A DNA stretch of 37,964 bases, from positions 1 to 37,964 of IMG/VR virus record IMGVR_UViG_3300022748_000027; one strand, written 5' to 3'. Positions 2,219-36,677 of the stretch are shown here, piece after piece (the first letter of the stretch is position 1; each line of letters opens with the position of its first letter). Made by a program: the position numbers and the translations under genes. The stretch comes from a virus. The notes under the pieces were generated by a model. It was not told the origin of the DNA. It saw only the letters and a program-made list of their open reading frames with translations, and made no database searches.

Positions 2219-3120
2219 AATGCTAAATCAAATGTAGAATTAGGTTTGATTGCTGATTCTGCCTTTTCTTCAAATGTAACCGCTTGTTGTTCGCCAATAA
2301 TAAACGGAAGTCCATTTGCATCAATCTCCATAACCATCGCCTCTATGTGATAGTTTCTTGTGTAGGTAAATTCAATGGCCGTTTGTCGTTCATCTATTAA
2401 TTCAAGCCTTGCAACCGTTTCAGCCTTTTGCATAATGAATGAACCTAAATGTCCTTTTGGTTTGTGTGTTCCAGGGTTTGTGTGAATAACGTTTAGTATG
2501 TGGCATTTCTTATCTGAAGTCCAACGCATCAACTTTTCAATCAATAGCATTGACTCCTTTATATCGTTTACATCATTAATTAAATCGGCAACCCCATCAA
2601 TAATTATAAATTCGATGTTCTTTGAATATTCGCTTGAGTAAATGGCCGTCTCGATTATCTCTACCCTTTCACGTGCTGAAAACTCGCGCAAGGCAAAAGG
2701 TTTGTAAAATTCGGGGTTTGAACCAGTCATCGGAACCACCCTTTTAAATACGTTTTGCGCATGAAATCGGCTTTGCTCAGTATCAAAGTCAAGAATGTAC
2801 CCGCTTTCTTTTCTATGTGTCTTTATTGATGTTGTAAAATCTGTTACCTTACCACCTATGTACGAAGCAACAAGTAAAGACTTAAAAAATGATTTGCGGG
2901 CTTTACTCGGTGCCATTAATGCACTAAAGTTTCCGTAGGTAGCAAATGCCGTCGGATATTCTTTGCCGCCTACGTAATGTGTGCCAATCGATATGGCAAT
3001 TGGCGGAAACTCAATCTTTTTATTAATGTCAATAAATGCACTTTGTAACTTTCTTTGCGCCTCGGTTACTGGTTGTATTACCTTTTCTTCTGACTTCAGA
3101 TATTTTAAAAATTCGCTCAT
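2215..3120 (-). CDS. RecA-like / RepA-type AAA ATPase, probable replicative helicase domain
   Basis: A 301-residue ATPase of the RecA-like family used as hexameric helicases by phages and plasmids (RepA/DnaB C-domain type). A divergent Walker A, APSKARKSFF, lies near residues 90-100, and a Walker B, IEFIIIDG, near residues 165-175. A sensor-like HILNVIHTNPG and a later arginine-containing segment follow. It overlaps the upstream DnaB N-domain gene by ATGA, suggesting co-translation. The usual GxxGxGKS loop is altered, with Ala-Arg before Lys-Ser; this form occurs in related Bacteroidetes proteins as far as I recall. Role inferred: unwinding DNA at the phage fork. Confidence 0.75.
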   Translation of the reverse strand: MSEFLKYLKSEEKVIQPVTEAQRKLQSAFIDINKKIEFPPIAISIGTHYVGGKEYPTAFATYGNFSALMAPSKARKSFFKSLLVASYIGGKVTDFTTSIKTHRKESGYILDFDTEQSRFHAQNVFKRVVPMTGSNPEFYKPFALREFSARERVEIIETAIYSSEYSKNIEFIIIDGVADLINDVNDIKESMLLIEKLMRWTSDKKCHILNVIHTNPGTHKPKGHLGSFIMQKAETVARLELIDERQTAIEFTYTRNYHIEAMVMEIDANGLPFIIGEQQAVTFEEKAESAIKPNSTFDLAF

Positions 3121-3773
3121 ATTTCTGCTTCTAATTGCATTAATAAATATTTTGCCTTCTCAGATACACACAAGCATCTAATGTTAGACAATAAAGCCAC
3201 TTTTGCATCATTTCGCTTAATACCTTCAATCTTTTTGTTTACCATATCTGCAAACTTTCGAACCTCGCGCTCCGCCACTTGTGAATAGTTTTTATGGTTA
3301 ATCATTAAAACGATTCCATCGATAGCCTCAAACACATCGATGTTGTAGTCAACTAAATCATTTGCGGCATTCTTGAATTCTATTCGCTCACTTTCGGGTA
3401 AATTGTGGTTCATTGATAGGTTAGTGAGTACCTCGATGAGTTTATCGGTTATATCGATTTGTACAAGTATCGCGGCATGATGCTGAGTATTCATAGTACT
3501 CGCTAATCTATTTGATAGATCAACAACGTGGTTAAATATTGACTTCTTAAATCGTTTTTTGTACTCGATTGAAAATGTCATTATATCAATGATTCTACCT
3601 TCTTTGTACATAGTCGTTATCATTGCCCATGCCTCTTGGTAGTCGTAATCATCCCAAATAGTGAAGTTTCTGTAACTCAAGAAGCTAATTACTTCAACTA
3701 CCTTGTTTTCTATTATCGCGGCGGAAAGTATGTATTCCTCCAATTTGCGACGTTCTTCTTTATAATCTATCAT
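3117..3773 (-). CDS. DnaB N-terminal-domain-like protein (helicase partner or loader)
   Basis: The first about 110 of 218 residues have the pattern of the DnaB N-domain: EEYILSAAII, FLSYRNF, DYQEAWAMITTMYKEGRIIDIMTF. This helical domain forms the collar of hexameric helicases and binds primase. No ATPase motif follows. The ATPase is instead in the next gene, overlapping by 4 nt. The pair looks like a replicative helicase split into two polypeptides, or a helicase with a separate loader. Upstream it overlaps the initiator gene by 4 nt. Confidence 0.65.
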   Translation of the reverse strand: MIDYKEERRKLEEYILSAAIIENKVVEVISFLSYRNFTIWDDYDYQEAWAMITTMYKEGRIIDIMTFSIEYKKRFKKSIFNHVVDLSNRLASTMNTQHHAAILVQIDITDKLIEVLTNLSMNHNLPESERIEFKNAANDLVDYNIDVFEAIDGIVLMINHKNYSQVAEREVRKFADMVNKKIEGIKRNDAKVALLSNIRCLCVSEKAKYLLMQLEAEI

Positions 3774-8296: not shown

Positions 8297-8467
8297 ATGA
8301 CACATAGAGAATTGAAAGATTTATTTTTGCTTGAAACGGGTTTTGAATGGTATGATGATTTTGGGTGTTATATTCAATGGCTCGAAGACAAATTAATTGA
8401 ATTGCAATCCCAACCATCCACCACCACCCCAAGTGATGATGTCGCGGCGGGTCATGGGGCGTGTTAA
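8297..8467 (+). CDS. small phage protein, 56 aa, at the left border of the cassette array
   Basis: ATG 8297, stop TAA 8465-8467. The translation begins MTHRELKDLFLLETGFEW and contains YIQWLEDKLIELQ, a pattern I recall from short Bacteroidetes phage ORFs. The last about 15 residues (PSDDVAAGHGAC) are unlike the rest and the coding sequence stops 6 bp before the first attC-like repeat. The original 3' end may therefore have been altered by insertion of the array. Function unknown. Confidence 0.6.
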   Translation: MTHRELKDLFLLETGFEWYDDFGCYIQWLEDKLIELQSQPSTTTPSDDVAAGHGAC

Positions 8468-8473
8468 GGTTGC

Positions 8474-8606
8474 GGGTAACGGATTAGGGCTTTGCGAAGG
8501 CGGGGAATAGAATTACTAATGTTTAAATTAAATACAAATGTCAAATAGAATTACAAATGTTGAGGGTAGTACATCATCCCTGCCTTTTGGCAAACCGATG
8601 TTAGGC
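8474..8606 (+). repeat. attC-like imperfect inverted repeat A
   Basis: Left arm from about 8487 to 8505 (GGGCTTTGCGAAGGCGGGG) pairs with 8578-8596 (CCCTGCCTTTTGGCAAACC), with bulged bases as in integron attC sites. The outer boxes are GGGTAAC (8474-8480) and GTTAGGC (8600-8606). The latter fits the integron R' consensus GTTRRRY. The start codon of the 199-residue gene (8538) lies in the spacer. The left outer box fits RYYYAAC poorly. Confidence 0.45.
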
Positions 8607-9137
8607 GATGTTTCTTTTCCAACTAAGGCTTATCAAATTGATTTAGATAGGTTAGATGAAGGGTATTTGTCAGATACGATTATGTGTTATGCAAATAATG
8701 TAAACGAAGCAAAAAAGAAATTATTGCAAGAAGTAAAGTATGATAATTGGAGGTTAAAATATACTGATGCTGAATTAACATATTTAAACATTCCTGTTAT
8801 TCGTAGAAAGTCAGATGATAAAATTTTATTTGAAGGTCAAGCAGTAACAGAAATTGAAAAGAATAGAATTTTATATAAACGTGAAAGACTATTATTATTA
8901 GAAAACATACTTAATGACAAAAACATAAAGTATTGCTACATCAAAAAGGGTTCATATTATAGACCTAATTCGTGTGGTTACACAGATTTTCAATATCGTG
9001 CAGGTGTTTATTCGAAAGAAGAAGCTGTACAAAGTGCTAAAAGTTGCGAAGAGTTAACTATCATTCCAATTGATATTTTAGAACACAATAAAATGATAAA
9101 TAATGAAATTTCAGAGTTGTCGAGTCGGTTGCTCTGA
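8538..9137 (+). CDS. cassette ORF 1, hypothetical protein, 199 aa
   Basis: Starts MSNRITNVEGSTSSL. The first about 23 residues are encoded inside attC-like repeat A. The rest is charged and helical. A C-terminal region has YYRPNSCGYTDFQYRAGVYSK followed by EEAVQSAK, a motif I associate with small phage or bacterial proteins of unknown function (RPN..GYT..AG.Y..EEA). No promoter of its own is visible. It would be read from the upstream rightward operon. The gene ends 6 bp before repeat B. Confidence 0.75.
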   Translation: MSNRITNVEGSTSSLPFGKPMLGDVSFPTKAYQIDLDRLDEGYLSDTIMCYANNVNEAKKKLLQEVKYDNWRLKYTDAELTYLNIPVIRRKSDDKILFEGQAVTEIEKNRILYKRERLLLLENILNDKNIKYCYIKKGSYYRPNSCGYTDFQYRAGVYSKEEAVQSAKSCEELTIIPIDILEHNKMINNEISELSSRLL

Positions 9138-9143
9138 AATATC

Positions 9144-9276
9144 GCCTAACGTTTTGCGGCTACCAGAAGGGCGGGATTTTAACCACTAAATTTAATAGAA
9201 ATGACAAAAAATAATACAACCACAAATGTTCCTAACGAAGCCGATAAACCCGCCTTTTTGGTAGGTGCTGTTATGC
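9144..9276 (+). repeat. attC-like imperfect inverted repeat B
   Basis: GCCTAAC (9144-9150) fits the integron R'' consensus RYYYAAC. The arm GGCTACCAGAAGGGCGGG (9158-9175) pairs imperfectly with CCCGCCTTTTTGGTAGGT (9249-9266), and GTTATGC (9270-9276) is close to GTTRRRY. Start codon 9201 of the next ORF lies in the spacer. Total about 133 bp, within the size range of attC sites. Confidence 0.55.
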
Positions 9277-9590
9277 GCTGCTCATTTACATTAGTAGTGA
9301 AGCGTTATAAAAGAGAAAACTGTACGCTTGATGATATGAGGTCAATTTATAGCGGAAAGACTTGCTTAATTGCAAAAAATAGCAAATTTGATGGATTATA
9401 TATTCACAAAAGCGGAAAGATTATCAAGGGTAAATTTTCAAAAGTTGCTGGAAGTGTCAGATACCCGATTTTGATAGCACAAGACGAAGTTCATATCCGT
9501 TTTGAAAATTTCCACAGTATGCCAAATATCATTACAGACCAATATGTCAAGCAGGATATTATTAGCGTAGTCGATTTGAGTTGCGCATAA
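9201..9590 (+). CDS. cassette ORF 2, hypothetical protein, 129 aa
   Basis: Starts MTKNNTTTNVPNEAD. The segment KPAFLVGAVMR is encoded by the right arm of repeat B. The remainder is a mixed strand/helix protein with KSGKIIKGKFSK and KVAGSVRYPILIAQDE, of no known family. The stop codon TAA (9588-9590) lies within the R''-like box of repeat C. No own promoter visible. Gene and repeats together look like one integron-type cassette unit. Confidence 0.72.
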   Translation: MTKNNTTTNVPNEADKPAFLVGAVMRCSFTLVVKRYKRENCTLDDMRSIYSGKTCLIAKNSKFDGLYIHKSGKIIKGKFSKVAGSVRYPILIAQDEVHIRFENFHSMPNIITDQYVKQDIISVVDLSCA

Positions 9591-9683
9591 CGTGTTGCAG
9601 GTAGGCGATAGTGCCGCTTACCACAAATGTAAATATCAAAGCACTAAGGCTCATAGCGGCATTTTGCCTACCTGCTGTTAGGT
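9585..9683 (+). repeat. attC-like inverted repeat C, the most complete one
   Basis: GCATAAC (9585-9591) is near RYYYAAC. The arm 9597-9618 (GCAGGTAGGCGATAGTGCC...) pairs with 9655-9675 over about 20 positions with a few unpaired bases. GTTAGGT (9677-9683) fits GTTRRRY fully. The 99-bp element lies between stop 9590 and the next ATG 9730, in the order stop - R'' - arms - R', as in integron cassettes. Confidence 0.65.
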
Positions 9684-9729
9684 GTCTGTAAAAAATAAAT
9701 TTAGCGTGGGCAATTAAACAAATTTTAAA

Positions 9730-10011
9730 ATGCAAACAGAAGCAAAAAATTATTTGACATTGAAATGGGGAACTCTTAAAAGTTGGGACTTTACTCATTC
9801 GGAAAAAGGACAAGCATTGTTGAAAGAATACAATGAAATAGGCTCATCTTTTAGTGCGATGGCTCAAAGAGATACACCAAGACAAAAGGAAATTATTTGC
9901 GAACTTATAGACCTTTGTGATGGCGATACCATTTACTTGGATTGGGATGGAAAAGATGTGTCAAAAGATGAAGCAAAAGCCTATGTAATGGATTACGGTA
10001 AAAAAGACTAA
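9730..10011 (+). CDS. cassette ORF 3, conserved hypothetical protein, 93 aa
   Basis: Starts MQTEAKNYLTLKWGTLKSW. It contains MAQRDTPRQKEIICELID and DGDTIYLDWDGKDVSK, features I recall from a widespread Bacteroidetes small-protein family of unknown function. It is the only cassette ORF whose start lies outside the inverted repeats, 46 bp after the R' box. It is acidic and soluble. After the stop lies GTTAGTTGGGTGC (10017-10029), which can pair with GCACCTAAC at 10052-10060. Confidence 0.75.
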   Translation: MQTEAKNYLTLKWGTLKSWDFTHSEKGQALLKEYNEIGSSFSAMAQRDTPRQKEIICELIDLCDGDTIYLDWDGKDVSKDEAKAYVMDYGKKD

Positions 10012-10053
10012 TGCTTGTTAGTTGGGTGCGGTGGAAAATTTATTTTTTATTGC

Positions 10054-10172
10054 ACCTAACGGTTTGCAGGTAGGCGTTGTTGCCACAGAATTTAATTAGA
10101 AACACTAAAATTAATATTATGACAAAAATATCAAACGAAGAACAAAGCAATAACGCCAATGTGCTGTTAGCA
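10054..10172 (+). repeat. attC-like imperfect inverted repeat D
   Basis: ACCTAAC (10054-10060) fits RYYYAAC. The following GGTTTGCAGGTAGGCGTTGTTGCC nearly repeats the left arm of repeat C. The right arm AACGCCAATGTGC (about 10153-10164) pairs imperfectly with GCAGGTAGGCGTT, and GTTAGCA (10166-10172) is near GTTRRRY. ATG 10119 lies in the spacer. The pairing is weaker than in repeat C. Confidence 0.5.
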
Positions 10173-10331
10173 GAAGTAAAAACGGCTAAAGGTAAATGTA
10201 TTGCTAAATGGGAAAAAAGATTAAATAAAGCTATTGACCAACAGAAAAGGTGGGGTAATTCATATTGGAATAATTATGCAGAAAAAATAACATTATATCA
10301 AGAAGTTATTAAAGATTTGAAGCGAGTATAG
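10119..10331 (+). CDS. cassette ORF 4, hypothetical basic protein, 70 aa
   Basis: ATG 10119 (MTKISNEEQSNNANVLL) is chosen over a TTG at 10077, which lies inside the repeat arm. Residues 12-18 are encoded by the right arm of repeat D. The rest is a Lys/Trp-rich helical protein (KWEKRLNKAIDQQKRWG). No family recognised. It is the last plus-strand gene before the non-coding stretch 10332-10558. Confidence 0.65.
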   Translation: MTKISNEEQSNNANVLLAEVKTAKGKCIAKWEKRLNKAIDQQKRWGNSYWNNYAEKITLYQEVIKDLKRV

Positions 10332-10356
10332 CCGTTTTTATTTCTGCTAACTTACT

Positions 10357-10383
10357 TATGTACGAAGTATTTATTCGTACATA
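10357..10383. repeat. perfect 10-bp hairpin TATGTACGAA / TTCGTACATA
   Basis: Arms 10357-10366 and 10374-10383 are perfectly complementary around a 7-base loop. It lies 26 bp after the last cassette ORF and close to TGCTAAC (10344-10350), which resembles the R'' boxes of the array. No T-run follows, so it is not a classical terminator. It could be a protein-binding site or the right end of the array. Confidence 0.6.
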
Positions 10384-10444
10384 CAACAAGCCTCACAAAT
10401 TAGTGGTTTTAATCACAATTTAATTTCAAATATTGCAAATTGAT

Positions 10445-10560
10445 TATATTTGCAACACTTATTACTAACTTAAATTTTAGCGTTATGAAAAAGTAATCGT
10501 CAGTCTTAGGACTTAAAATCGAACTAAATGAAAAGCCTCACAAATTAGTGGGGCTTTTTT
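10445..10560 (+). ncRNA. candidate small RNA with its own promoter box and terminator
   Basis: TATATTTG (10445-10452) is a perfect Bacteroidetes -7 box. No good -33 TTTG is present at the right distance. About 100 bases downstream is a strong terminator (10531-10558). Between them is no sizeable ORF, only the three-codon ATG AAA AAG TAA at 10485-10496. A 19-bp sequence that forms the terminator's left arm and loop (10533-10551) also occurs at 10388-10406. Either a small RNA or a short leader is possible. Confidence 0.4.
10531..10558 (+). terminator. intrinsic terminator closing the rightward operon
   Basis: AAAAGCCTCAC (10531-10541) pairs with GTGGGGCTTTT (10548-10558) over 11 bp with one G-U pair and a 6-base loop, followed by further T residues. 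It separates the rightward genes from the leftward holin gene ending at 10559. On the opposite strand the A/T tracts also allow termination of the leftward late transcript. Confidence 0.8.
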
Positions 10561-28570: not shown

Positions 28571-30052
28571 TTATGCCTTGGTTAATGCAGTAATATCAGT
28601 TGAGAATGTACCTTTTACAAAGGCAGTTCTGTTATTGTTCTTAACAACTAACGCACCTCTCCACTCTGCGATGATTGTACGTAAATTCTTAGTCCAGTCA
28701 TCAGAGTCAAGACCCATGTTGATTGTAACTGATTCCTTAGAGTACAATGTTGCAAGGTTGAAGTTACCTACCATGTAAGTACCCGCAGTTACTAAGGTAG
28801 TACCAATCATCGGAACTGCATCTAATGTTAATGTATCACCAATGTAAAGTAATCTGTCGATGTAACGCTTGTCGGTAGCTGATACTTTGTAAAGTTTCAA
28901 CTTCGCGATATCAGTTGGATTCATCAAGATAGCGTTTGGTGCTTCTTGGTTAGCCAATGCGATTTGGTTCATTGCAACAACAAGTACGTCAGCCTCGTTT
29001 GGATTATCAACCGCTAATGCGAAATCTCCCGCAGAGAATGCAGTTGCAACGGTTCTAACACCATTCAATGCAGGTGCAGTACCATCACCCGAATACGCAG
29101 TATTCTCAACATCCAACATCAACATTCTCATCAACTCGTTACGGATTTCTGACTCGATAAAGTCGATATCTTGCAACATCTCAGTTGATACCTTGATGTA
29201 AGCAGTACGCTTAACAACTGATTGAGAAGCAACAACTAAGTCAAAGTCAATTTTGTTTTTAGCCGATCCCTCAGTAGTACCACCCGCAGAACCATCGCGG
29301 TTAGCTTGGTATACCCATGAGATGATGTTTGATGTTGCAGTACCTTTCGCGAATAAGTCAAGTAAACGTACACGACGAGTAGGGATGATGTTAAAGCCTG
29401 GAATACGTTGCTCAACTGGTACATTTCCTCCCGAAATGTTAGTCGACTCTAACATATTAGCCGCCGCCTTAATCTCAAATGATACACCGCTTGATTGCAC
29501 CTCGCTTAAGTTGCTTGATTGTAACGCCTTTAGTTTTGCCATGTTCTCTGCAGTACCTAAAGTTTCTTTGATTGATTGAGCATTGCTCATAATACCTCTG
29601 TCAGCATTGTTCTTGTTTAGCTTCTCAATTGCTAATCCGTATTGCTTCAATGCCGCATTCAATGACTTCATTTGCTCAGCCATGTCTTCTTTGAGTTGCT
29701 TTTGCAAATTCTCGATGTCTTCCTTGCTTGCTTTGTTAGCAATTGCCGCCTCAAGTTCTGCACGTGATGCCGCATTCTTTTGGTTGTAGTACTCAGCTAA
29801 TTCTTCTGCTGATGCCTCTTTGATAAAGTTGTCAAGTTCTTCACCTTTCAACTCTTTGAACTTACCACCCACCATGAATACTGGTGCAGTTGCTAATACT
29901 AATGCCGTGGCTGATTTGTCAGCACTTACGCAGCTAATGGTTAATAACGCTAAAAGGAATACTCCCAAAACTCGCGCTATCGTTTGTTTTCTTTTTGCAA
30001 CACGGATTTTCACTTCATTTGCTCCGCTTGCTTTGTAACTTAACTCTTTCAT
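28571..30052 (-). CDS. major capsid protein, HK97 fold, with N-terminal scaffold and hydrophobic segment
   Basis: 493 residues. Residues about 165-493 are a HK97-type capsid: QRIPGFNIIPTRRVRLLDLFAKG, GSAKNKIDFDLVVASQSVV, STEMLQDIDFIESEIRNEL, EAPNAILMNPTDIAKLKLY and DDWTKNLRTIIAEWRGALVVKN. Residues about 65-160 form a coiled-coil delta domain expected to be removed by the protease encoded next door. Residues 24-63 are strongly hydrophobic (VLGVFLLALLTISCVSA) with a lipobox-like LTISC at residue 41, not expected in a cytoplasmic capsid precursor. Confidence 0.85.
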   Translation of the reverse strand: MKELSYKASGANEVKIRVAKRKQTIARVLGVFLLALLTISCVSADKSATALVLATAPVFMVGGKFKELKGEELDNFIKEASAEELAEYYNQKNAASRAELEAAIANKASKEDIENLQKQLKEDMAEQMKSLNAALKQYGLAIEKLNKNNADRGIMSNAQSIKETLGTAENMAKLKALQSSNLSEVQSSGVSFEIKAAANMLESTNISGGNVPVEQRIPGFNIIPTRRVRLLDLFAKGTATSNIISWVYQANRDGSAGGTTEGSAKNKIDFDLVVASQSVVKRTAYIKVSTEMLQDIDFIESEIRNELMRMLMLDVENTAYSGDGTAPALNGVRTVATAFSAGDFALAVDNPNEADVLVVAMNQIALANQEAPNAILMNPTDIAKLKLYKVSATDKRYIDRLLYIGDTLTLDAVPMIGTTLVTAGTYMVGNFNLATLYSKESVTINMGLDSDDWTKNLRTIIAEWRGALVVKNNNRTAFVKGTFSTDITALTKA

Positions 30053-30055
30053 TTT

Positions 30056-30964
30056 TTAGTTAATTAAATTGATTAATAATTCTTTCTTTCTTTTTGCAAG
30101 TGCTTTCGCGGCTTCGCTATCGTTAGTGTCTTTCGACGGCTCACTCTTTCTTGGTGTGCCACAACTTGAGCAGTATTGACCACTCATCGGTGCGTTGCAG
30201 TTCTCACACTTCATATCTTCTTCGGGTGATGGGTTCTGAAGTACTGGTGTTGCATCATTGCTACCTTTCACTACCATGCTACCTTCTGTGACAATCTTTA
30301 ATTCCAACACCGCCCAAAAGTAACCTTCTGCATCAGCTAATTCCTTGTTGGCTATCATTGGGTAGTACTTATCCCAATTTGCTTTTTCAGTCTTGTATTC
30401 GGGTCTTTTATCGTTTATGCAAGTGACGAAATTCACATACTGCATTCTGATTGAATTCTGTACGGGGCGGTTATGTTCAATGATTTCTTCAGCATCATCG
30501 TCATCGATGTTTTCCTTGTCAATCTTAAAAATTAAACACTCTGATTGTCCTTTGAAGTCTTTTCCAAGTATTGACCAATCAAGTTTCTGAACCATCATCT
30601 CAACATCCTCTGGCCATGCAATGATAGTACCCACTTTTACATCGTGATTCTTAGCGTAGAATATCTTTCCTTGTTGCTCTTGTACAGTCTTTTTGAAGCA
30701 TCCATCAATATGAACATCTCCATGCGAGTCAAGGTAGTTCGTCGTTGAAATTACGGGGTAAATATACCCATCCTCAATTGTTAACCCTTTAGTTGCGCCA
30801 TCCTTAATCGTCACATTTGTCTTTGAGATATGACCACGCTCATGACTGAATATCAACTCAGCCTTTTTCAAGGCTTTAATACGTGCCTCATCTTTACGAA
30901 TAGCGTCAAACAACTCATCCTTAGAGTTGAATGTTTTATCTGGAAAGTATCTATTCTTTATCAT
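30056..30964 (-). CDS. prohead protease (HK97 S78 family) with C-terminal zinc ribbon
   Basis: The protease domain spans residues about 60-235. His107 in AKNHDVKVGTI and Ser171 in VQNSIRMQYV are the expected catalytic residues of the S78 family. After PSPEEDMK comes a CxxC...CxxC zinc ribbon (C253, C256, C265, C268: CENCNAPMSGQYCSSCG) and a charged tail. It would cut the scaffold part off the capsid protein during head maturation. The zinc ribbon is an addition not present in HK97 gp4. It lies 3 bp before the capsid gene. Confidence 0.82.
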   Translation of the reverse strand: MIKNRYFPDKTFNSKDELFDAIRKDEARIKALKKAELIFSHERGHISKTNVTIKDGATKGLTIEDGYIYPVISTTNYLDSHGDVHIDGCFKKTVQEQQGKIFYAKNHDVKVGTIIAWPEDVEMMVQKLDWSILGKDFKGQSECLIFKIDKENIDDDDAEEIIEHNRPVQNSIRMQYVNFVTCINDKRPEYKTEKANWDKYYPMIANKELADAEGYFWAVLELKIVTEGSMVVKGSNDATPVLQNPSPEEDMKCENCNAPMSGQYCSSCGTPRKSEPSKDTNDSEAAKALAKRKKELLINLIN

Positions 30965-34249: not shown

Positions 34250-34456
34250 TTAATATCCTTTAACTTTCAAACCGATGTCGATTAGTTCCCTTATCACCTT
34301 GCTTCTATTTTGATTTCCTATGCAAGTGTGAAGTCTTTTGTATAAGGTTTTATTATTTGTTCCGAACGTAACTGACTCAAGCACTCTACGTTTGTCGATG
34401 ACGCTCATAAAATGCTCAAGCCGTTGTTCTAGTGTTAATGGTAGTTTTGCGGGCAT
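34250..34456 (-). CDS. hypothetical small protein, ribbon-helix-helix-like C-terminus, 68 aa
   Basis: Starts MPAKLPLTLEQRLEHFMSVI. The C-terminal QNRSKVIRELIDIGLKVKGY has the RxxVIRxLIxxGL pattern of ribbon-helix-helix DNA-binding proteins, although the preceding strand is not obvious. It overlaps the methyltransferase stop by one base (TAATG). It might regulate the early/late switch located just downstream. A weak call. Confidence 0.6.
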   Translation of the reverse strand: MPAKLPLTLEQRLEHFMSVIDKRRVLESVTFGTNNKTLYKRLHTCIGNQNRSKVIRELIDIGLKVKGY

Positions 34457-36618
34457 TAAAATAGTGTAACTTGTTCTTTTAGTTTTACTGCTGATGCTAC
34501 ATTTGATTTTGCTAAATCGTAGTATGATTCTTTCAATTCAAATCCAATAGCCTTTCTATCCATTTTTACCGCTTGGAATACTTCTGAGCCTATGCCCATG
34601 AAAGGTGTCAATACTGTATCGCCTTTATTTGAGTAAAGCAGTATCAATCTTTCAATAGTGTCTAATTGAAGTGGGCAAATATGTTTTTCATCATTATCAT
34701 CGCGGCCATTTCTATAACCTTGTAATGTGTTTCCATAATCTATATCCATCCATACTGGTGAAGCTATCTTTTGCCACAAATCAACACTCATTTCTGTATT
34801 TGTTACGGGGTCAGTTCTATCGCCGTCTTTTCTGAATATCATTACATAGTCGGGTATTCCAACTCTGCTCATAGTTGAATCTTTTTTTACTTGCTTATGA
34901 AGCAATCCCAATGCTTTAGTTCTTTGCATTTCTATTACTGGGTCTTTCCAAATTGTTACTCTTGAAGCATAAATAAAGCCCGCTTCCTCGAATGCCTTGA
35001 GTATCATTCCTGAAAAGTCGCGCAATCCTATAAAACCTTCTTTACCTTTTTGAATAGGTAAGTCCATACAATGAACGCATACATTTCTGCCTTGCTTAAT
35101 CACTCGGTAAAGTTCTTTAATTAAAAAACCGAACTGAGTTAAAAACTCATTATAGTCTTTTGAATTACCCATATCCTCTAAGTGGCTTGAGTATGTATAA
35201 AGCTCGGCAAACGGCGGGCTAAATACTGAAAGACCTACTGATTCTGATTCTACCTCTTTGATTAATTGAACGCAATCGCCTCTTTTTATCTTATACCATT
35301 CATTTTGCACCTCGCTGGTATCTAATGTTCCTGATGTCATTAATTGACCTTTTAAATTAGCGTTTATTGCTTTGCTCATTTCGTCTTGCATGATTTCAAA
35401 TTGCTTTTGTTTATTGTTTATTGATTGAATTACATTTGCCATGGTATCGGTTGTAATTAAATAGATATTTACTTCTTCTTTTTGCCCAAATCGGTATGAA
35501 CGTCTAATAGCTTGGTATAATCCCTCAAAGCTAAAATCTAATGAAGCAAAAATCTGATTTCTGCAATTTTGATAGTTCATCCCAAAACTAGCTATCTTAG
35601 TTTTTGTTATCAAGATTCTAAATTCATTATTTGCAAATCCTAGCAATGTTTTTTCTTTCCATTCGTTGGTATCTGAGCCTTTTACTTCTCTTGCTTCGGG
35701 TAATAGCTTTTTAAGCATTTCGCCTTCTTCATTTTGCTTTATCCATATTATAAAGTTTTCGTTAGGCTTTGAATTAATAATATTCACAACTTCATCAAGC
35801 CTTTCAATCTTAGTCAATCTCAGTTCACTATTGAAATTCGTTGCTGATATGATTGCATCATTAAATAAGCTACCATTATCGCGTTTTGGCGTCAATATCA
35901 TTTTGTCGATAAGGTTTAGGCTTGGCAAATTATATCCATCCATTTTAAAACCTATATCTTGCGGCTTATTGAGCATAATAGCCCAACTGCCTACAAACTG
36001 ATAAAACATTTTAACCGCATGGCCTTTTAATCTCCATTTGGCCGTTTCGCCTCCATCATGAACAAAATACATTGCAAGCATTTCATTTCTGCTCATAACA
36101 TCCAAAAACTCTGAATGATTCCCTAATTCCATTGGGTCGTTCGGGCTTGGTGTGGCCGTGCATGCTAATTTGTATGGTGTCAATGCAAAAAAGTCAATAA
36201 TTTGTCTTTTAATTGAGCCTTCAAAGTTCTTAAGTATTGAACTTTCATCAAGTACAATTCCTGAGTAAATCGAGCAATCAATATTTTCTAACTGCTCATA
36301 ATTGTTCACGTGGATATTATCCATGTTTACACCAAACTTTAATCCCTCTTGTTTAGTTTGGCCAACAACGGCCAATGGCGCAAGTATCAATACAGGCTTA
36401 TTTGTATGGTTGTTTACTTGCTTTGCCCACTCCAACTGCATAAATGTTTTACCAAGTCCGCAATCGGCAAAAATTGCATACTTACCCGCTTTCAATGCTC
36501 GCTTAACTATGAACTTCTGAAAATCAAATAATGAAGGGTTAAGTTCTGAATCTGCAACATCAAATCCGCTTTCAATGTGTTGCTTCTGTTTAGTTTCTAA
36601 AAACTCTTTATAATCCAT
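34456..36618 (-). CDS. SNF2-type helicase fused to a DNA N4/N6 methyltransferase, 720 aa
   Basis: ATG 36618 (MDYKEFLETKQ) is chosen over ATG 36669 because the latter starts inside a hairpin. The N-terminal about 430 residues are an SF2/SNF2-like ATPase: Walker A FADCGLGKT (residues 50-60), motif II VLDESS, motif III TATPSPND, and motif VI QAIRRSYRFGQ. The C-terminal about 260 residues are a beta-class methyltransferase: SPPF (catalytic motif IV) and TPFMGIGSEVFQAVKMDRKAIGFEL (SAM-binding motif I). Together they would methylate phage DNA while moving along it, or remodel it. DESS replaces the usual DEAH/DEAD box. Confidence 0.87.
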   Translation of the reverse strand: MDYKEFLETKQKQHIESGFDVADSELNPSLFDFQKFIVKRALKAGKYAIFADCGLGKTFMQLEWAKQVNNHTNKPVLILAPLAVVGQTKQEGLKFGVNMDNIHVNNYEQLENIDCSIYSGIVLDESSILKNFEGSIKRQIIDFFALTPYKLACTATPSPNDPMELGNHSEFLDVMSRNEMLAMYFVHDGGETAKWRLKGHAVKMFYQFVGSWAIMLNKPQDIGFKMDGYNLPSLNLIDKMILTPKRDNGSLFNDAIISATNFNSELRLTKIERLDEVVNIINSKPNENFIIWIKQNEEGEMLKKLLPEAREVKGSDTNEWKEKTLLGFANNEFRILITKTKIASFGMNYQNCRNQIFASLDFSFEGLYQAIRRSYRFGQKEEVNIYLITTDTMANVIQSINNKQKQFEIMQDEMSKAINANLKGQLMTSGTLDTSEVQNEWYKIKRGDCVQLIKEVESESVGLSVFSPPFAELYTYSSHLEDMGNSKDYNEFLTQFGFLIKELYRVIKQGRNVCVHCMDLPIQKGKEGFIGLRDFSGMILKAFEEAGFIYASRVTIWKDPVIEMQRTKALGLLHKQVKKDSTMSRVGIPDYVMIFRKDGDRTDPVTNTEMSVDLWQKIASPVWMDIDYGNTLQGYRNGRDDNDEKHICPLQLDTIERLILLYSNKGDTVLTPFMGIGSEVFQAVKMDRKAIGFELKESYYDLAKSNVASAVKLKEQVTLF

Positions 36619-36630
36619 AATGTAATGAAA

Positions 36631-36677
36631 AAGCCCCCACAACGAACGCCAGTGCGAGTGACGTGTCATGAAGGCTT
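36631..36677 (-). terminator. terminator-like hairpin before the helicase-methyltransferase gene
   Basis: On the minus strand AAGCCTTCATGAC (36665-36677) pairs with GTTGTGGGGGCTT (36631-36643) over 13 bp with four G-U pairs and a 21-base loop, followed by TTT. The start codon 36618 lies about 12 bases beyond. Its sequence and position resemble the hairpin at 4455-4497, so both may be attenuators. Confidence 0.55.

Follow-up and report, generated by a model that had tools for sequence, protein, structure and literature searches.

The viral record IMGVR_UViG_3300022748_000027, whose 37,964 bases were analysed as a whole (the window), carries genes for a terminase, a portal protein, a major head protein and an endolysin and, at positions 8297-10369, a row of small genes interspersed with hairpin-forming inverted repeats. 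Judging from sequence, we propose with a probability of about 80% that this is a short mobile-cassette array, part of an integron-like phage system with a XerA-like tyrosine recombinase. The proposal is carried by the hairpins, the repeats at the two ends of each unit, exact unit boundaries, a conserved polarity and the link to one recombinase family. According to our scheme, a cassette would consist of a 5' hairpin (TAAC, about 5 nucleotides (nt), arm, loop, complementary arm, T, GTTA), a small gene that often starts within the hairpin loop, and an end that repeats the start in inverted form and closes with TAAC. The recombinase would use the hairpin's folded coding strand as its substrate, with crossover in the TAAC box (GTTA on the other strand), and cassettes would be inserted at an attI-like site, TAAC followed directly by TATNATATAT.., immediately ahead of the recombinase gene. 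In recombinase-less phages insertion would take place at a similar site. The phage of the window, which has an array with an attI-like end and no recombinase, would presumably have received its cassettes in trans, from a co-resident phage or element bearing the enzyme.

Hairpins and cassette units

Four elements running from a TAAC to a GTTA box had been described in the initial annotation, and inspection of the letters confirmed them all. On the + strand, as are all array features given below, hairpin 1 spans 8477-8603 (TAAC 8477-8480, GTTA 8600-8603), hairpin 2 9147-9273 (TAAC from 9147, GTTA 9270-9273), hairpin 3 9588-9680 (TAAC from 9588, GTTA 9677-9680) and hairpin 4 10057-10169 (TAAC from 10057, GTTA 10166-10169). 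Hairpin 3 is of a class of about 90 nt and belongs to a sequence family also present in L004-L011. For scanning we required TAACG plus an arm, then a complementary arm plus GTTA but not CGTTA; sites not starting with TAACG or ending in CGTTA were thus dropped, and the rule also fixes orientation, equally for both strands. The scanner picks up three of the four window elements and misses element 1, the arms of which have several mismatches. This is far above the level in shuffled sequence, which was 0.008 on average (maximum 1) for 1000 dinucleotide shuffles of 8300-10500 and 0.075 (maximum 2) for 120 shuffles of the whole window. The reported fit of the outer boxes to RYYYAAC/GTTRRRY stood in part: AAC/GTT boxes and inner arms are found at all four elements, but the full seven-base consensus only in several of the boxes.

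Folding energies of the top (gene) and bottom strands were -12.9 and -9.1, -14.8 and -9.4, -19.2 and -18.2, and -11.4 and -8.7 kcal/mol for elements 1 to 4 (element 1 folded from 8478), the gene strand giving the more stable fold in all four. At related sites, the strand common to gene and recombinase folds more stably in 43/48, 74/81 and 118/126 untied cases, by size class. Single folds of the sites show this strand bias; a systematic extrahelical base was not established by them. At scanned junctions the inner arms vary in sequence and keep their complementarity, while an A 7 nt before GTTA is nearly invariant (254/258 sites) and a T directly precedes GTTA in every case (258/258). These site statistics, like those on unit ends, are based on 258 unique sites retained of 311. 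The unique sites, from L069-L148, fall into three length classes near 48, 90 and 127 nt, and the loop CGTTTTAATG is common to many sites of the short class.

A search for repeats in the window revealed inverted repeats at 8600-8614/9136-9150, 9270-9284/9577-9591 and 10166-10188/10329-10351. Since these long repeats run from the end of one hairpin to the start of the next, the unit is a cassette with its own complementary start (GTTA..) and end (..TAAC). The body of cassette 1 extends from 8600 to 9150 (own ends GTTAGGCGATGTTTC and GAAATATCGCCTAAC), that of cassette 3 from 9677 to 10060 (GTTAGGTG..AAAAAATAAATTT and AAATTTATTTTTTATTGCACCTAAC) and that of cassette 4 from 10166 to 10351, with own ends of 23 nt that are 96% complementary; a fifth TAAC at 10348-10351 forms the end of cassette 4. 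At 11 diagnostic own-end positions, cassettes 1 to 4 score 11, 10, 7 and 11. The array is preceded by what appears to be a truncated cassette (8297-8480) with a small open reading frame (ORF) at 8297-8467 and a cassette end, GGTTGCGGGTAAC, that has the diagnostic end motif; a matching start (GTTACCCGC..) was not seen upstream.

The same architecture is found in related arrays. Among 193 cassettes, own ends pair at 10.06 of 16 positions, compared with 5.49 for shuffled partners (standard deviation (sd) 0.12, maximum 5.87 in 1000 shuffles), whereas the flanks on either side of a hairpin show no complementarity to each other (mean 5.4/16). Counted from GTTA, matches occur in 68-89% of cases at positions 1-6 and 8-11, but in just 7% at position 7. 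Here the cassette start reads G (77%) and its end, once reverse-complemented, A (99%), so that the paired ends contain a G/T mismatch. The own-end repeat reaches about 15 nt.

Three of the four genes start inside a hairpin. ORF1 (8538-9137, 199 residues; ATG at 8538 in hairpin 1) matches phrog_35347, a PHROG family of unknown function (E 3e-18). ORF2 (9201-9590, 129 residues) has its ATG at 9201 in hairpin 2 and its stop codon within the terminal TAAC box of its cassette. ORF3 (9730-10011, 93 residues), which starts outside the hairpin, has 18 relatives in viral contigs. ORF4 (10119-10331) has 70 residues when counted from the ATG at 10119 in hairpin 4, as opposed to 84 from a TTG at 10077 in the program-made ORF list, and gave no family match below E 0.01. 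In the class of about 127 nt, start codons within the hairpin are above chance (84/128 sites, 971/2580 random segments). Seventy-seven cassette proteins (of 126 cluster representatives) were scanned against Pfam and yielded nine families with one member each, including DNA methylases, an RNA ligase and an exoribonuclease; PHROGs matches were mostly to methyltransferases and exonucleases.

The genes had also been described as lacking promoters of their own, which could not be established. Sigma-70-like matches were not more frequent than in shuffles (15 versus 17.9), and the sigma-70 consensus does not describe Bacteroidota promoters. A Bacteroidota-type promoter (taken as TAnnTTTG) in the cassette end, serving the next cassette, was considered and rejected (7 matches, 7.15 expected). 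In hairpins plus 40 nt, TAnnTTTG occurs 39 times versus 25.

Cassette 2 provides the clearest case of exchange. ORF2 has a 93% relative in the phage contig L371, and the DNA match (window 9147-9591, L371 283-727; 91.3% identity over 447 columns) comprises exactly cassette 2, bounded by both TAAC boxes. Beyond it the two sequences agree at just 11/40 and 9/40 bases, and the neighbours differ. In the codons 3' of the hairpin, substitutions number 2, 0 and 15 at codon positions 1, 2 and 3, indicating that the ORF2 protein is under selection; the N-termini encoded within the hairpins are likewise similar. In L371, cassette 2 is the last one and is followed by TAAC and TTCTTTATATACGAAATA; in the window, cassettes 3 and 4 follow before the array ends in TAAC and TTACTTATGTACGAAGTA. 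The initial annotation had asked whether ORFs come and go as units; cassette 2 does recur elsewhere as an exact unit. One further cassette, bounded by TAAC in both contigs, occupies the attI-proximal position in L077 (4004-4280) and an internal one in L093 (2981-3255). Of the stretches of 150-1500 nt that are homologous between arrays (229 of 394 retained, those touching a locus end being excluded), 113 begin at the left TAAC box but only 6 at the right GTTA box, compared with 2.5% and 2.8% for random positions. One hairpin has eight viral copies (two from near-identical contigs) that agree in the right flank and not in the left. In phages related by portal or lysozyme, the flanks were too different for an empty-site comparison.

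The hairpin-encoded N-terminal peptide ..ENLNISDV.. occurs in L069, L071, L075, L081, L082, L114 and L132, fused to unrelated proteins, as if such leaders could be swapped at the right-hand box.

A linked recombinase and an attI-like site

The pattern of a window hairpin has nine matches in viral contigs, at least eight of which are real copies, in most cases with similar arrays in the neighbourhood. Five of the nine contigs encode a tyrosine recombinase, always near an array. Around 80 such genes (the best 80 of 216 viral-contig relatives of five starting recombinases, with 67 distinct DNA sequences) we found 311 sites upstream on the recombinase strand and none on the other, and downstream 4 and none. 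At least one site is present in 64 of the 80 loci; 15 of the 16 site-less loci have fewer than 1300 upstream bases, and 56 of the 57 loci with at least 1300 carry a site. For comparison, 61 portal loci (1.27 million strand-bases) contained 9 sites, and 101 loci of lysozyme and annealing-protein genes (1.72 million) contained 27. The part of contig G005 that duplicates G004 was excluded from the counts.

Arrays end about 50-70 bases ahead of the recombinase start in the attI-like sequence, in which the bases preceding TAAC vary and those following it are conserved, and by a rule of TAAC then TATA this sequence is found upstream of the recombinase in 75/80 loci. The start of the last cassette pairs with the bases before the TAAC on the attI side (46 cases, 9.93 versus 5.38 for shuffled partners, sd 0.24), so that the junction between array and platform lies in the TAAC box, and the hairpin therefore belongs to the gene on its right, i.e. 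stands 5' of its own gene. This agrees with the homology starts at the left box, the shared right flanks of hairpin copies and the TAAC-bounded shared cassettes. In 177 of the 193 cassettes the longest ORF faces the recombinase; in 15 it faces away. In neighbourhoods of classical IntI integrases (14 fetched, 6 long enough for the scan), all four sites found (in three neighbourhoods) are oriented to the integrase as the phage sites are to their recombinase. Since the sites thus follow the classical orientation, the inversion with respect to classical integrons is one of the genes.

The end of the window array (TAAC plus TTACTTATGTACGAAGTA, 10348-10369) is tentatively read as an attI-like landing site or a relic. 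It agrees with the array end of L371 at 14/18 bases, as does only one of the 368 TAACs in the window, which fits insertion of the newer cassettes at a landing site. Recombinase-less arrays at L302 14730, L051 14783 and 2471, and L048 11249 end in TAAC plus a partly shared TATAACC..YATAAA and perhaps represent a second landing-site family.

The first five recombinases comprise 263-275 residues. Among 30 aligned members, the motifs GLRVSE (29/30), HxLRH (30/30), KGxKDR (30/30) and that of the catalytic tyrosine (26/30, strict pattern) are conserved. The family is colinear with archaeal XerA (4a8e, E 6e-47) without an insert, whereas the alignment with IntI4 (2a3v) breaks where IntI4 has 80 residues and the phage family 32. 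An AlphaFold model (mean predicted local distance difference test 83) was closest to XerA (5hxy, Z 19.3; 4a8e, 17.6), followed by IntI4 (16.0). Member 1 scores 195.2 bits against NF040815 (XerA-like), under the family cut-off of 220, and the linked recombinases remain below the cut-off of TIGR02249. In an unrooted tree of 51 sequences, 31 phage recombinases form one side together with 4 XerA-like ones (from three plasmids and a phage), separated from 10 IntI and 6 Xer with support of 99/93.

Close XerA-like relatives that group with the phage recombinases in the tree adjoin erm(F) on a Flagellimonas plasmid (L149 7044-8819), where no array was found beside the recombinase, and tet(X3) on an Acinetobacter plasmid (L338 2546-4567). 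On a Chryseobacterium plasmid, a site of the kind described here (L150 10147-10272, - strand) lies downstream of a XerA-like recombinase in opposite orientation. A recombinase gene with in-frame stops (G174 206207-206985; L373, L374) is present in a phage contig of 334 kb that also has an ORF3 relative.

The absence of an integrase had been stated correctly for the window record, in which the linked recombinase has 0 matches. Two of the first contigs have phage hallmark genes. Contig G002, which carries the recombinase, codes for a major head protein, a DNA polymerase and a helicase (25 of 70 ORFs scanned); contig G007, which carries arrays, codes for terminase, portal and virion proteins (19 of 34 ORFs scanned), and no recombinase was found in it. 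The nearest recombinases, together with the sites in the Chryseobacterium plasmid and in a Polaribacter phage, suggest a host among the Bacteroidota.

Alternative explanations and relation to integrons

The initial annotation took the array for gene cassettes of the ordinary kind, i.e. a cluster of attC sites lacking an integrase (CALIN) that came from a bacterial chromosome into a phage. One-gene, attC-like mobile cassettes in a phage record without integrase are indeed what we find; the ordinary source and the chromosomal origin were not supported. On this reading, a phage would have taken up attC cassettes of a classical bacterial IntI integron, a situation that Qi et al. (2023; PMC9892861) reported for other phages. 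Their accessible text describes CALINs as integrase-less attC clusters in virulent phages, with 5/6 tested sites working with IntI1. It also includes Polaribacter phage P12002L, whose CALIN has two DNA methyltransferases and in which one of two tested sites recombined with IntI1/attI1. We find in P12002L three sites of the window kind on one strand (30008-30056, 38035-38090 and 38879-38936) around the methyltransferase genes. This, the partial fit of the boxes to RYYYAAC/GTTRRRY and the classical polarity of the sites relative to IntI (4/4) speak for such an origin. We nevertheless regard it as improbable: the matching recombinase is phage-borne, XerA-like and without the IntI insert, and falls apart from the 10 IntI; the longest ORFs face the recombinase, while classical cassette genes face away from the integrase; and the own-end repeats reach about 15 nt, not 7. 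The hairpin sequence occurs in viral contigs (at least eight of nine matches), whereas 14 matches of one hairpin pattern in genomes of GTDB species, taken as chance, had a hairpin at none.

Still less probable are double-stranded pdif/Xer-like modules, in which the outer repeats would be recombinase arms and the inner hairpin incidental, e.g. a regulatory RNA hairpin. The reach of the outer repeats and the XerA-like recombinase would suit them, but the inner arms vary and yet stay complementary, the A and T near GTTA are kept and one strand consistently folds better. Hairpins located towards the 5' end of genes, frequently including the start codon, would also be compatible with a static phage operon in which intergenic hairpins recur as terminators, attenuators or elements of translation control and gene order changes by homologous recombination. 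This we consider very improbable, because it predicts neither the repeats from unit end to unit start, nor the homology bounded by TAAC, nor the link and polarity to one recombinase family.

Several observations weigh against a phage cassette array with a XerA-like recombinase. Recombination itself is inferred and none was observed; promoter-motif scans identified no cassette promoters, and expression, like folding in vivo, is presumed. Start codons within the hairpin are not above chance in the other two size classes (4/81 and 8/49). A matrix built from 56 recombinase-linked attI-like sites ranks the window site 10th of 368 TAACs, and since it is not singled out, we term this array end attI-like only; the L371 site scores near the low end of the true ones with the same matrix. 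The recombinase was found in none of 19 records, mostly chosen for having arrays and including the window, many of which are fragments, so that its absence lends little weight to action in trans. Peptide patterns of ORF1 detected no relative in the viral contigs. For ORF3, the scanner detected a site within 400 bases in 5 of the 18 relatives, always downstream and never upstream, from which it follows that this gene also travels outside such arrays. In L363 and L364 (about 2930-3400), an ORF3 relative lies between sites that by eye resemble classical attC; the gene family may be common to classical and phage cassettes.

The proposed phage system shares with integrons and CALINs the arrays of one-gene cassettes, TAAC/GTTA boxes, an asymmetric hairpin folding better on one strand, the attI-like site beside a tyrosine recombinase and the polarity of sites relative to it. 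It differs in that the recombinase lacks the IntI-specific domain and stands outside the IntI group, that genes are reversed with the hairpin 5' (in classical integrons attC is 3'), that the own-end repeat is longer and has a conserved G/T mismatch position, and that the start codon lies within many sites. The array would function like an integron array but, by two tested features, IntI-type integrase and gene orientation, is not classed as a classical integron. Known XerA resolves chromosome dimers at dif, and we know of no cassette array associated with it; XerA-like tyrosine recombinases (NF040815; 4a8e, 5hxy) are nonetheless the best sequence and fold match of the phage family. In the accessible text of PMC9668308, the additional IntI domain is regarded as defining and as necessary for integron recombination. 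That of Qi et al. treats phage CALINs as integron components and describes no XerA-like recombinase of their own, attI or reversed-cassette rule. In the reverse integrons of Treponema denticola, integrase and cassette genes are likewise co-directed, as far as the available parts of PMC4909258 and PMC7691350 go, but the cassettes follow intI and have attC on the 3' side of their gene, a layout that differs from the upstream location of the phage arrays (311 versus 4 sites). For Bacteroidetes, the consulted part of PMC9024848 mentions only In0 elements and, later, a complete integron in Salinibacter. In the full-text literature, with preprints and most subscription papers outside the scope, we found no account of either reversed cassettes or a XerA-type phage integron.

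Further features and implications

Searches of the window for Rfam families and transfer RNAs gave no hits, nor did BLAST searches of the region against phage records and of one hairpin sequence against phages and plasmids. Between the array and the lysis genes, a perfect 19-nt direct repeat is present at 10388-10406 and 10533-10551; its second copy can pair with the bases following it, ahead of a T run. A single 737-residue protein encoded at 34456-36669 (- strand) matches DNA helicase and DNA methyltransferase families.

Beyond the window, we lean towards the wider proposal that phages run an integron lineage of their own, in which a XerA-like enzyme without the IntI domain would act on folded sites, genes are inverted and the site provides their 5' end and often the N-terminus. 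Complete platforms would reside in large phages, and cassettes of a shared pool would be inserted in trans into small phages, the one of the window among them, that retain no more than a landing site. Integrons are known as bacterial devices; the same cassette logic with a plain Xer-type enzyme in phages would, if true, give a second case. It would bear on the origins of integrons, on the need for the IntI domain and on the question of how genes become cassettes, and it would account for the shuffling of accessory genes such as methyltransferases among phages.

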